From: Paenibacillus oceani
GTDB taxonomy: Bacteria; Bacillota; Bacilli; Paenibacillales; NBRC-103111
Length of the DNA: 64,000 nucleotides
Assembly: GCF_014705615.1 (NCBI RefSeq)
Contig: NZ_JACXJA010000049.1
Coordinates: forward strand, 1 to 64,000
Direction: 5' to 3'
Positions 13,971 to 58,293 of the stretch are shown piece after piece. How positions within the stretch are numbered: the first letter of the stretch is position 1; each line of letters begins with the position of its first letter. The notes beneath the pieces are model-generated. The model saw only the letters and a list, made by a program, of their open reading frames with translations. It had not been told where the DNA came from and ran no database searches. The position numbers were made by a program, and so were the translations under genes.

Positions 13971-14021
13971 TGTTCCCTCCTTGGGATCGCGATAGTTTTT
14001 TGCGGCCCGACTACCCTCTTC

Positions 14022-14208
14022 CGGAAGTATCACTTCCGTTATTTGTTTCTTGCAGCAGGAAATCGACCCATAGCGGAAATATCGTTTCCGCTATTTGCTG
14101 CATAACCGCCTGGATCAACCCAAAAAGCTAAAATAACGGTAACCAAACTTCCGCTAAGGCATGAAAGTTGCGGGTTTTGCGAAATTAGCGGAAGTCATAC
14201 TTCCGCTG
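14022..14208. repeat. Four-palindrome intergenic element, locus B (TAGCGGAA core)
   Basis: Four palindromes of the TAGCGGAA-N7-TTCCGCTA type with centres at 14030, 14082, 14145 and 14197, spacing 52, 63 and 52. The first and third copies are degenerate in the outer arm. The fourth overlaps the stop codon of the membrane protein gene at 14185. The same core recurs at 58.1-58.3 kb. Confidence 0.85.
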
Positions 14209-14643: not shown

Positions 14644-14674
14644 AAAAAGGCCGCCGGATCGCTCTCCGGCAGCC
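14644..14674 (-). terminator. Rho-independent terminator of the maltodextrin operon
   Basis: Minus-strand stem GGCTGCCGGA with TCCGGCGGCC, six-nt loop, then five T. It lies 48 nt past the last esterase gene. Confidence 0.85.
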
Positions 14675-23629: not shown

Positions 23630-23823
23630 AATTAAGAGTCTTTTGCACCCGCTATTTCCGGCAGATTGGGCAGAATGAAGCGAATAAAGGCGGTTTGCAC
23701 CTCTTATTCCAACCATCTGACGGGGTCTGCGCCCTATTCGCGGATTATAGCAGCTTCAAACCGCTCTTATTTCCCCATTCAAGCTGGTTTCGGACCAAAT
23801 AAAGGGTACAAACCGCTCTTAAT
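23630..23823. repeat. Four-palindrome intergenic element, locus A (AATAAAGG/CTCTTATT core)
   Basis: Four 26-bp imperfect palindromes with AATAAAGG...CTCTTATT ends and a shared inner GCACC or CAAACC. Centres at 23643.5, 23695.5, 23758.5 and 23810.5, spacing 52, 63 and 52. First copy is the most degenerate. Short open frames running through it look like by-products of the repeat. Confidence 0.8.
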
Positions 23824-23994
23824 CGGCTCTCGGCTCTTCCCCGTCCATGAGCAGGGAAGTACAAGGCCACACGCCCGCCGCTCTCCCGTGATATATGCCC
23901 GCTGCCGCGTAAGCGGCTAGCGCCTTATTGCAAGCAAAACATGCCCATCCCAGCCCAGCTTCGCTGCACCCTTATCCGTTTTGACCTCTACTAG

Positions 23995-39420: not shown

Positions 39421-39780
39421 ATCAAAAAACTCCCGTCTTCAAGATCATTAATCTTGAGGACGAGAGTTATTCACTTCGTGGTACCACCTCAGTTTATCGA
39501 TATGTTGCCATATCAACCTCTTCGGGTACGGCAATTTTATAAAAAAAATTGATTATACCCTATCTCTATAACGGGAGATCCCGTCGCAGCATCACTAAGA
39601 AAACAATCTTAGATCCATGCGAAGCTCCGAGTCTTTTTTCATTTAGATCCTTATTACTCCTTTCCACCAGACAGGAGCTCTCTGTAAATAATGAATCCAA
39701 ATTACTGTTCTCTTCATAGCCGTATGTTATTTTTTGAAAATTTAAAATTAACTTAGCAAATAGAAATGGTTGTTGTCAAC
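39421..39780 (-). promoter_or_regulatory. T-box riboswitch of the lysS gene, with promoter
   Basis: Minus strand. TTGACA at 39779-39774 begins the promoter. Then come an AGAGAG element with CTGG-TGGAAAGG (stem I), a GATGAAAAAAGAC-like segment with AAA as likely lysine specifier (about 39635), and the T-box GAGGTGGTACCACG (39491-39478), which pairs with the tRNA acceptor end. A terminator follows (CTCTCGTCCTCAAGAT with its complement, then TTTTTT, 39466-39425). Uncharged tRNA(Lys) should stabilise the antiterminator and switch lysS on. The specifier position is inferred, not folded. Confidence 0.85.
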
Positions 39781-44882: not shown

Positions 44883-45127
44883 CTATATAGGTTGAACTAA
44901 TGAAAGTTGAAGTCCATTTCGTTGCGAAAAAAATTGCTTGAAGCTTCAGACATCTTGTTTTGAGTGTCTCGGATTGAATTGGCCTTCGGACTGTTGACAC
45001 TCAAAGCTTATCCTTCCGAAGCAGCTTTCTAACGAAAGCTCTTAAGCCAAAACTCGCTTTCAAGCTAATTTCTTTTCTCCACTACATTGGGTTTTACCAT
45101 CGTAGATCTTTAGTTCAACTTATATAG
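44883..45127. mobile_element. MITE-like element
   Basis: 245 bp bounded by 18-bp inverted repeats, CTATATAGGTTGAACTAA at 44883-44900 and TTAGTTCAACTTATATAG at 45110-45127 (17 of 18 match). No coding frame inside. No clear target duplication. It fills the gap between the SPFH operon promoter and the aminotransferase gene. A 20-bp internal stretch (45062-45081) recurs exactly at 30905-30924. Confidence 0.6.
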
Positions 45128-46663: not shown

Positions 46664-46801
46664 ATGCATCAATCCACCGTTATTTGTATTAGCGGGCCTT
46701 CGGGCGCAGGGAAAAGCTCGTTAATGGAAAGAACCGTCGAGCTTCTCGAGGATTCGGTCAGTTTTTATTTCGATGCCTATCAATCGACGCTACTGCATTA
46801 A
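46664..46801 (+). pseudogene. Truncated P-loop kinase start
   Basis: An ATG at 46664 preceded by GGGGAGGG opens a 45-codon frame: MHQSTVICISGPSGAGKSSL, a perfect Walker A (GPSGAGKSS) at the start of a nucleoside/uridine-kinase-like fold, then SVSFYFDAYQSTLLH and a stop. Full family members have about 180-210 residues. What follows is a hairpin and repeats, so the rest of the gene is gone. The ribosome binding site and start are intact, so a short peptide could still be made. Too short for the specific kinase to be named. Confidence 0.65.
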
Positions 46802-46802
46802 G

Positions 46803-46832
46803 AAAAACCGTCCGGAAAATCATCCGGACGGT
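46803..46832 (-). terminator. Perfect hairpin with minus-strand T-run
   Basis: ACCGTCCGGA pairs exactly with TCCGGACGGT over a six-nt loop; five T follow on the minus strand. Nothing on that strand upstream needs it except a possible transcript through the repeat element. Confidence 0.65.
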
Positions 46833-46939
46833 CCTTGACGTACAAACCCATACGCTAACGCGTGAAAGGGAATGGGAACCCCCTTCCTTCGCTCCAGCCG
46901 CTCGCCCTCAGTCGTGTTGTCTTTTTACGGTGGTATCGC

Positions 46940-47122
46940 TAACGAACCCAGCAACCGTTATCAGAGCCGAATGCGGGCGTTTGAATTTGTAACGAACTCT
47001 AGTATGGTTATTTCCGCCCAAATCCGATCGTTTTTTTCCACTTTCGGTTCAATAACGATCCACGGATTCGTTACGTCTGGAATAACGTCGTTTTTCAGTC
47101 ATAAGCGTGATCCGATTCGTTA
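46940..47122. repeat. Four-palindrome intergenic element, locus C (TAACGA core)
   Basis: Four 21-bp palindromes of the TAACGAx...xTCGTTA type at 46940-46960, 46990-47010, 47053-47073 and 47102-47122. Spacing 50, 63 and 49. Third copy is the best (TAACGAT..ATTCGTTA). Fills a gene-free stretch between the kinase remnant and the protease terminator. Confidence 0.75.
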
Positions 47123-47262
47123 GTCATCGGACCTGAGTATACGTTCTCTAACGCCAAGGAAGGAAACTCCTCCCCTTCATTTTAGCACGGTAAAGAACTT
47201 AAACTTTCTGGCAGATAAAAAAGCCTTTCTACCCACGAAATTTTATAAATTCTTACATGTTT

Positions 47263-47297
47263 AAAAAGAGTCCGCTTGGTTTCCCAAGCAGACTCTT
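47263..47297 (-). terminator. Rho-independent terminator
   Basis: Minus-strand AAGAGTCTGCTTGG with CCAAGCGGACTCTT (one mismatch) followed by TTTTT, 67 nt past the protease gene. Confidence 0.85.
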
Positions 47298-49114: not shown

Positions 49115-49240
49115 ACAATTTAACGTGTATGTGTAACTGGCGGAGCATGGGGAACCATGAGGGAGCACATGGACGGTAACGGCCGTACGCCTGGGCAGAG
49201 GTAAGGGGACTTGGTTTCTCCTTGCCTCTTTTTGGTTTAC
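49115..49240 (+). promoter_or_regulatory. ZTP (pfl) riboswitch with terminator, upstream of purT
   Basis: The conserved 3' end of the pfl motif is clear: GGCCGTACGCCTGGGCAGAGG at about 49180-49201 (only the first 20 bases are typical of the family, and CCTGGGCA is its hallmark), preceded by the GGAACCAT..ACGG segment. A terminator follows at once: AGAGGTAAGG with CCTTGCCTCT and then TTTTGG (49198-49234). ZTP should stop the terminator from forming and turn purT on. The structure was read by eye, not folded. Confidence 0.75.
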
Positions 49241-49288: not shown

Positions 49289-50449
49289 ATGTTGCGTACA
49301 ACCAAATTGCTGCTGTTAGGCTCGGGAGAACTCGGGAAAGAAGTGATCATCGAAGCTCAGCGCCTGGGTGTGGAGACGGTCGCCGTAGACCGCTACGCGG
49401 ACGCGCCTGCCATGCAGGTCGCCCACCGCAGCTACGTGATCGATATGCTGGATGCGGAGCGGCTGCGGGCCGTGATCGAGCAGGAGAAGCCGGATCTGAT
49501 CGTACCGGAGATCGAGGCGCTGGCCACCTCCGAGCTGGTGAAGCTGGAAGCGGAAGGCTACCGCGTCATTCCGACCGCCCGCGCGGCGAAGCTGACGATG
49601 GACCGCGAAGGGATACGCCGGCTTGCCGCAGAGAAGCTGGGACTTCCGACCGCCGGCTACAAGTTCGCCGATACGTACGAACAGTTCGTGCAAGCCGTCA
49701 AGGAGACTGGCTACCCTTGCGTCATCAAACCGCTCATGAGCTCATCGGGCAAAGGGCAGAGCGTATGCCGGGAAGAGAGCGATATCGAGAAAAGCTGGAA
49801 TATCGCGATGGAAGGCGGCCGGGTGCAGAACGGACGGGTCATCATCGAAGAATTCATCCGATTCCAATCCGAGATTACGCTGCTGACGGTCCGTTCGGTA
49901 AGCGGGACAAGCTTCTGCGCGCCGATCGGGCACGTTCAGGAGAGCGGCGATTATATCGAGTCGTGGCAGCCCCACGAGATGACGGAACAGCAGATCGCGG
50001 AAGCGAAGCATATCGCGAAGACGATTACGGACGAGCTCGGCGGTTACGGCCTGTTCGGCGTCGAGCTGTTTCTGGCCGAGGATAAAGTGTACTTCAGCGA
50101 AGTTTCTCCACGGCCGCACGATACCGGGCTGGTGACGCTGGTCACGCAAAATTTATCCGAATTCGCCATCCACGTCCGCGCCATCCTCGGGTATCCGATT
50201 CCGGAGATCGTACTCGTTACGCCGGGCGCCAGCCGGCCGCTGAAGGCGGACCGCGAGCTGGAGCATTACCGGATCGGCGGCGCGGCCGAGGCGCTGGCCG
50301 TCTCGAACACGCAGCTGCGCATCTTCGGCAAGCCGGTTACGAAGGCAGGACGCCGTATGGCGGTAGCTTTATCGTCCGCTCCCACGGTTCAAGAAGCACG
50401 CGACCGCGCCAAGCAGGCGCTAGACAAGCTGTCCGTCGAGGAAGCATAG
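49289..50449 (+). CDS. purT: Formate-dependent phosphoribosylglycinamide formyltransferase 2
   Basis: The ATG at 49289 follows GAGGGAC. 386 residues, ATP-grasp enzyme. N-terminal [20 protein letters not shown] is the PurK/PurT-type nucleotide-binding start, [20 protein letters not shown] follows, [17 protein letters not shown] is the ATP-grasp lysine/glycine loop, and [20 protein letters not shown] then [20 protein letters not shown] hold the Mg-binding acids ([11 protein letters not shown]). It makes formyl-GAR from GAR, formate and ATP in purine synthesis without using 10-formyl-THF. Controlled by the leader at 49115-49240. A terminator-like hairpin follows. Confidence 0.95.
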
Positions 50450-51046: not shown

Positions 51047-51082
51047 CGATCGGCATACGCCCATATGCCGCAACGGAACAAG

Positions 51083-51264
51083 TCCTGCTCAGAAGCAGGA
51101 ACATTGCTGGAAATGGACGGTAATCGAATGTATTCCTGCTGGAGCGCAGGAATCTTTTTCAGAATGAGCCAAAACGAACGTCAACTTGCTCCAATTCCTG
51201 CAGATACGCAGGAATAGTACTGGCAGGAGTAGCCGCTTCCCGGGATTTGGGTAATACTTTCCCA
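51083..51264. repeat. Four-palindrome intergenic element, locus D (ATTCCTGC core)
   Basis: Palindromes TCCTGCT..AGCAGGA (centre 51091.5), ATTCCTGC..GCAGGAAT (51142.5) and ATTCCTGC..GCAGGAAT (51204.5), spacing 51 and 62. The fourth expected centre (51256) carries a weak TGGG-N9-CCCA palindrome with another core. The middle spacer contains TTTGGCTCATTC in inverse orientation relative to locus E. Confidence 0.75.
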
Positions 51265-58103: not shown

Positions 58104-58293
58104 TACCGGAAGAATGACTTCCGTTATTCTCGCTCCACGCTCGTCAAATCGGTGTTAGCGGAACTTTCATTTCCGTTATTTCCGCCGATTTGGCTCATTC
58201 GGCCTTACGAGCAAGCAATAGCGGAACCAAAACTTCCGCTATTGCTCTCCCAGACGGCTTCCTCCCCAAATAACGGAAGTCGTTCTTCCGCTA
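58104..58293. repeat. Four-palindrome intergenic element, locus E (TAGCGGAA core)
   Basis: TAGCGGAA-N7-TTCCGCTA palindromes with centres at 58115, 58167, 58230 and 58282, spacing exactly 52, 63 and 52. Second, third and fourth copies are nearly complete; the first begins TACCGGAA. The same family as locus B. Confidence 0.9.

Follow-up and report, generated by a model that had tools for sequence, protein, structure and literature searches.

Dispersed repeats of bacteria are usually recognised by their sequence. In CRISPR arrays, palindromic repeats alternate with spacers of fixed length and unlike sequence. REPINs are paired REP sequences mobilised by RAYTs; in the part of the source drawn on here, a trans-acting RAYT accounts for their having conserved ends around a free spacer whose length is maintained (PMC3116915). 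BIMEs are described, in the portion of the source used, as regularly spaced REPs of alternating orientation (PMC2817692). The bcr1–bcr18 repeats of the Bacillus cereus group are intergenic, partly transcribed in untranslated regions and in some cases MITE-like, according to the section of the source cited here (PMC3446304).

Here we analyse a window of 64,000 nucleotides (the whole stretch of DNA studied; contig NZ_JACXJA010000049.1) from Paenibacillus oceani, whose genome assembly (G000, the own genome) comprises 8.05 Mb in 94 contigs. The element found in it, the quartet, consists of four units of approximately 23–27 bp in the orientation > > < <, with centres approximately 52, 63 and 52 bp apart. 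Since it is the layout that is constant here, clustering by sequence would split one class of elements into unrelated families.

Results

The five loci of the window

The first-pass annotation of the window had listed five intergenic loci with four palindromes each, at spacings of or near 52/63/52 bp. We scanned the window for four similar and palindromic units in the > > < < orientation. Four of the loci were borne out, with scores of 59.5–82.5. Locus E (58104–58293; centres 58115, 58167, 58230 and 58282; score 82.5; − strand as predicted by the CCGGAA end rule, our own orientation rule for family 1) and locus B (14017–14208; centres 14030, 14082, 14145 and 14197; score 75; − in its predicted orientation) had the spacing 52/63/52, and locus C (46938–47124, − strand; centres 46950, 47000, 47063 and 47112; score 62) had 50/63/49, as annotated. 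Locus A (23630–23824, − strand; centres 23643, 23695, 23759 and 23811; score 59.5) was fitted best by 52/64/52 instead. In nine control spacing cubes the top scores were 57.5, 55 and 52, all within loci E or B, and the rest were at most 51.5.

Locus D (51082–51214, no strand assigned) is a partial member only. It contains three TTCCTGC..GCAGGAA palindromes with the annotated spacings of 51 and 62; TTCCTGC-N6-GCAGGAA occurs at 51082, 51133 and 51195 with at most two mismatches. The chance mean was 0.26 and none of 100 shuffles reached three, and the three palindromes are real. The core is absent from the claimed fourth palindrome, which is at noise level. The score of locus D as a quartet, 48.5, was within the control range and below that of a presumably chance match at 50191 (50.5).

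The annotation had also stated that the cores differ from locus to locus. This applies to three families: family 1 (loci E and B, TARCGGAA-N7-TTCCGYTA), family 2 (locus A, AATAAGAG..CTCTTATT) and family 3 (locus C, TAACGA..TCGTTA), loci E and B having one core family in common.

Excess over chance and spacing

Scanning for palindromes alone was too noisy at low scores (158 matches vs. a control mean of 85 at score 24, and 17 vs. 0.1 at score 30), and for this reason the own-genome score added the similarity among the four units, with reversal, to the palindrome matches; a first scan requiring 8/8 pairs was overly strict. In 852 kb of the own genome, a sample enriched by picking most stretches around family-1 matches, 39 matches of at least 52 were found at 52/63/52 and none at each of 25 random spacings. 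Six stretches not picked by core (120 kb) gave five matches of at least 54, compared with one across seven control cubes together. Scaled naively, and with a wide error, this sample would correspond to some hundreds of quartets per genome.

The family-1 pattern had 80 matches in the own genome (35 forward and 45 reverse, perfect palindromes being tallied on both strands), and its reversed control none. Nearly all good TAGCGGAA-type sites in the sampled sequence (102/104 with at most one mismatch) had two or more partners at the distances of a quartet, and no further unit extended any of 29 family-1 quartets. A pattern for family-2 pairs, open to 31 lengths, matched 13 times in the own genome, every time 52 bp apart. 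Among 60 own-genome quartets scoring at least 54, the first interval was 52 in 51 cases and the last in 51, and the middle one was 63 in 36 and 62 in 13. The mean intervals of 97 quartets from several genomes were 51.7/62.7/51.7, and the first and last differed by at most 1 in 94 of them, which is partly by construction (the blind-sample scans described below permitted a difference of at most 1 only).

The sites of a quartet are alike, oriented and set at constant distances close to whole helical turns, as in a phased array. The annotation had predicted that all four palindromes face one side of the DNA. Approximately 5, 6 and 5 turns are compatible with four proteins on one face; the phasing may not be exact, as the families differ by 2–3 bp.

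Quartets in other genomes

Family-1 site pairs were present in nine of 104 Paenibacillaceae genomes. At the places listed they lay at quartet distances in G009, G010, G011, G024 and G025, and they also matched in G092, G094 and G098 (107 in the last); none were found in G008, of the same genus. A search of 398 genomes drawn from the class gave two matches, the own genome and one tandem repeat. Around the family-1 matches in G009 and G024 there were further quartets with other cores, in G024 at approximately 50/62/50.

Blind 100-kb samples yielded six matches of at least 54 in G029 (controls 0), four in G051 (controls 0) and four in G103 (controls up to 2), and none in G008 (controls up to 2). 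The cores were CCTGC..GCAGG, CATTGGA..TCCACTG and AATAAGAG..CTCTTATT in G029, TAAGGGAACTACAGTACGCTAT in G051 and AGTCCGAAATTGCCCGCTTGGAG in G103. The AGTCCGAAATTGCCCGCTTGGAG core also occurs in the P. contaminans record NZ_QMFB01000011.1, the only record of 22 loci with matches of at least 54 (two, with none in six control cubes). Conserved geometry with unconserved cores, as first annotated, therefore holds both here and in further Paenibacillaceae genomes: 52/63/52 stands well above the control spacings, and the spacing recurs in other genomes, the G008 sample being without it.

A tandem array of more than four units with alternating spacing near 51 and 61 was seen at approximately 229–720 of a G029 locus (L137).

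Element boundaries, placement and turnover

The 191 bp of locus B had 18 other matches in the own genome, 13 of them end to end at 70–77% identity. The element is mostly discrete, approximately 190–225 bp long, with inverted outer units. Of 12 copy pairs taken from G029, G103, G051 and G024, 10 had a similarity that began 7–39 bp before the centre of the first unit and whose end lay anywhere from 7 bp ahead of the centre of the last unit to 46 bp past it; in the remaining two the likeness ran further out than the element.

By a crude ORF caller, on which all these counts rest, 44 of 48 quartets lay between called genes, 26 in co-directional, 16 in convergent and two in divergent gaps, and these stretches had 199 gaps of 190 bp or more, of which 98 were co-directional, 44 convergent and 57 divergent. 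Quartets are mostly located at the 3' ends of genes, and divergent gaps are avoided. No neighbouring gene family clearly recurred beside 101 quartets, the largest excess being five neighbours vs. 1.6 expected.

Short size, dispersal, inverted ends and placement at gene ends are also properties of an ordinary MITE, i.e. the non-autonomous remnant of a DDE-type transposon, with the outer units as terminal inverted repeats. However, target-site duplications of 4 to 9 bp showed no excess over rotated controls; at 3 bp the best value was 6 vs. a control maximum of 5 (32 own loci), and G009 and G024 had no excess, so that a MITE with target duplication is unsupported. The copies are old, and duplications may since have been lost. 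The quartet further has four conserved sites rather than two, its core varies while the layout stays, and no autonomous copy was seen in searches of the quartet neighbours and for PF01797. We regard a MITE as very unlikely.

A MITE-like repeat of 245 bp, with the inverted ends TATAGGTTGAACTAA..TTAGTTCAACTTATA, lies at 44883–45127 of the window, and full or partial copies of it occur in the own genome and in G008–G011.

Quartet positions turn over between species. At all three orthologous gene ends compared in G009, a sister species (68–78% identity, one flanking gene compared at each), the quartet was missing, and no synteny reaching up to a quartet was found between 10 G009 quartet regions and 41 own-genome stretches. 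Synteny around locus B stopped at 14666 in both G009 and P. ginsengarvi, the closest named relative among the matches listed (92% identity of the probe protein). Conserved genes near loci C, D and E are present in other genomes.

Constraint on sites and spacing

We aligned 29 of 37 family-1 clusters on the exact geometry, leaving out eight with other spacing or a weak unit. Mean pairwise identity was 0.86 in the arms, 0.51 in the loops, 0.385 in the spacers (median 0.325) and 0.28 in the flanks, compared with 0.251 by chance, the means being inflated by one recent group of five loci. Copies of a subfamily have spacers in common. Drift alone is expected to leave more length changes than are seen in the quartets. 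Since the spacers have diverged far in letters and their lengths have mostly stayed, we infer that the spacing matters to something.

The main rival to the mobile element favoured in the Discussion starts from this point: the same complex of four proteins could serve the cell, in chromosome architecture, insulation or regulation at gene ends, and the copies would be kept by selection on each locus and not by mobility. The preserved arms and spacing next to spacers near chance identity, the phased, oriented layout and the gene-end placement would all suit such an array. Selection on each locus is harder to reconcile with the loss of position at the three gene ends tested in G009, with G008, whose sample lacks quartets and whose genome lacks family-1 pairs, and with the change of cores between genomes. 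We therefore consider a host function unlikely, if the strongest of the alternatives.

Larger repeats and a terminator-like module

Some quartets were amplified inside larger repeats. Locus C is contained in a dispersed repeat (46796–47275, − strand) of approximately 430–480 bp, with approximately 30 other full or partial own-genome matches at approximately 79–93% identity; 18 copies were aligned. Five family-1 quartets lie within a repeat of approximately 560 bp, one copy being truncated. This recent repeat (L028, L055, L040, L058 and partly L037) begins with CTAGTGC, ends near GACTAGTA and carries the family-1 quartet.

The conserved − strand end of the locus C repeat is the module R1 (46795–46886, − strand; 96.9 bits with model R1, from alignment A1). 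It has a hairpin around CCCAT..ATGGG, followed by CCGTCCGG..CCGGACGG and a T-run resembling the 3' end of an intrinsic terminator. R1 was found in 52 of the 104 Paenibacillaceae genomes (E ≤ 0.001), with at least 41 matches in the own genome, and it is absent from Rfam. In the own-genome sample, 18 of 23 matches (E ≤ 0.065) had a quartet 47–257 nt upstream on the same strand, the model having been built from some of these copies; of 24 weaker matches only two (L047 and L051), chosen as adjoining quartets, were inspected. Elsewhere the link is loose: a quartet was upstream in five of 20 R1 loci (with no control cubes there), and in L196, L074 and L184 it was on the other side of R1, beyond the terminator. 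For these reasons we regard R1 as a module in its own right, which comes together with quartets at gene ends and has been co-amplified with family 3.

The nearest upstream ORF was on the same strand in 17 of the 20 R1 loci, two loci resembling copies of each other. The terminator stems of loci such as L137–L156 vary but stay paired (e.g. CCGTCAGG/CCTGACGG and CCTAGCGGA/TCCGCTAGG). No structure emerged from an initial consensus fold of 37 R1 copies. When R1 was evaluated as RNA, standard pairs filled 84% of the pair cells, a value equalled by 52 of 500 letter shuffles, and slid partners gave 20–42%. The support for an R1 RNA is kept pairing, not covariation.

RNA structure or DNA sites

The quartets might also be transcribed structures in the 3' flanks of genes, the units forming RNA hairpins that serve in stabilisation, in termination or as protein-binding sites. 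Of 29 quartets that could be oriented, 24 were on the strand of the upstream gene (13/15, 9/11 and 2/3; 15 family-1 loci could not be oriented), family-1 units fold into hairpins (−9.1 vs. −2.2 kcal/mol for shuffled sequences), wobble pairs outnumbered A–C mismatches by 11:1 and 11:4 in six elements each of families 1 and 2, respectively, and a terminator-like module follows the quartet at the 18 R1 matches above. The group filed as family 3, however, had the opposite wobble bias (5:11), the family labels being rough (21 elements filed, approximately three more than put in). The consensus fold of 18 family-3 copies had changes on both sides in three of 73 pairs, which neither proves nor excludes RNA. 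The units of G051 (−1.7 vs. −2.4 kcal/mol) and G103 (−2.6 vs. −3.9) folded no better than shuffled ones, and their layout is kept. An RNA with spacer helices was rejected, as no consistent spacer helix or covariation was found in 16 non-redundant loci of the 29 of family 1, and the three quartets beyond the R1 terminator also speak against an RNA. We judge this explanation improbable.

A further proposal is that the units are bidirectional tandem terminators, in which inward U-rich tails after the hairpins stop transcription both ways. It agrees with the gene-end placement, the stable family-1 hairpins and the T fraction of the own-genome family-1 tails (inward 0.56, outward 0.24). The tails showed no such asymmetry in G009 (0.35/0.35) or in G024 family 1 (0.41/0.41), and G051 and G103 lack the hairpins. 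A stable hairpin followed by a T-run was thus seen in own-genome family 1 only and not in G051, G103, G009 or G024, and bidirectional termination, not being general, is hardly credible as an explanation of the quartet.

The comparison with Rfam 15 was carried out, and no curated family matches the quartets: in the window only T-box and ZMP-ZTP reached the gathering score, and the sole match in the region of locus C was Hrs13, whose 19.9 bits fell far short of its gathering score of 52. The two former are a T-box leader at 39453–39726 (− strand) and a ZMP/ZTP riboswitch at 49123–49203 (+ strand), both at gathering score.

What unites the families is a set of four similar sites with an orientation, and not hairpin formation. 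Because the units of two core families do not fold into hairpins, a hairpin or cruciform is unlikely to explain every family. The retention of the layout in families whose units do not fold favours a DNA-level array of sites over RNA hairpins. Of the three options first offered, the protein array and the mobile palindrome unit are retained and can be combined, and the transcribed four-hairpin RNA is weakened.

Discussion

The quartet is a discrete multi-copy element with a fixed layout, a variable core and placement at 3' ends. Its positions turn over between species, and its sites and their spacing are constrained, whereas the letters of the spacers are not. The reading that we tentatively prefer, at somewhat below an even chance, is that of a dispersed REPIN-like non-coding element, the four oriented sites of which would dock a putative trans-acting DNA-binding protein that copies or moves it. 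Trans-acting recognition is proposed by analogy with REPINs, where conserved ends likewise flank a free spacer of kept length. Each site would bind one protein unit, or a dimer where the site is palindromic, and the four units would form a dyad-symmetric complex on approximately one face of the DNA. The layout would be set by this complex and the core by the protein reading it, different cores being read by diversified trans-acting proteins. The complex would copy or move the element, and since copies inserted into promoters would be lost, those that persist would lie mainly at the 3' ends of genes. The terminator-bearing module on some copies may be a passenger or a co-opted part.

There are also points against the preferred reading. 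Old, diverged copies have retained their spacing, which a neutral mobile relic would not need to do. No RAYT-type transposase was found in G029 or G051, no target duplication and no clearly recurrent neighbour gene, which leaves the protein wholly putative. Moreover, two of 12 copy pairs are alike further out, and some quartets were amplified inside larger repeats.

It is possible, with less than even confidence on our part, that the quartets form a geometry-defined superfamily of the Paenibacillaceae, in which the layout is inherited and each family has exchanged the recognition word for another, in step with a diversified and undescribed family of DNA-binding or mobilising proteins. The quartets give direct access to the question of how recognition sites diverge jointly with the proteins reading them, and their many natural copies could be used to test what keeps the spacing constant.

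Comparison with known systems

The papers searched and Rfam gave no matching description of the four-site layout, short core words being uninformative as queries. Dispersed extragenic repeats are already known; a class defined by layout with exchangeable cores would be new. The many Paenibacillus repeats of four motifs, with a fixed layout and letters that vary by family, point to an undescribed kind of dispersed element.

With respect to RAYT-type proteins, PF01797 had no match in the quartet-bearing G029 and G051, nor in G098. It had five short matches in the own genome, two of them presumably IS200-like, and there was no quartet in those five loci. On this PF01797 result the quartets were not assigned to the REPIN/RAYT system; a spacer hairpin with compensatory changes was also missing in the 16 loci.

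As in CRISPR arrays, the palindromic repeats are alike within a locus and the spacers are dissimilar and of fixed length. The quartets differ in their four units, of which two are inverted, in their two spacing values and tens of loci, and in that copies of a subfamily have spacers in common; the inversion, the two spacing values and the spacer similarity rule out a CRISPR-like array. Like bcr1–bcr18, the quartets are intergenic repeats of Firmicutes; they are set apart by description, since the cited part of that account describes no four-site layout with exchangeable core (PMC3446304). With BIMEs, as characterised in the portion of the source used, they share clusters of short palindromes in a fixed, extragenic array, but they comprise exactly four units in mirrored order (102/104 good family-1 sites in quartets, 0/29 quartets extended) (PMC2817692).

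The likeness to REPINs, as far as the cited part of the source describes them, is that both are dispersed and extragenic, with conserved palindromic sites, a variable spacer of kept length and several site families per genome (PMC3116915). The spacers of the quartets, however, are without pairing, and some quartet families are non-palindromic. A REPIN, in the same description, is one inverted pair, whereas the quartet has four sites in the order > > < < (PMC3116915); its outer and inner units do form inverted pairs, but the unit is the quartet.
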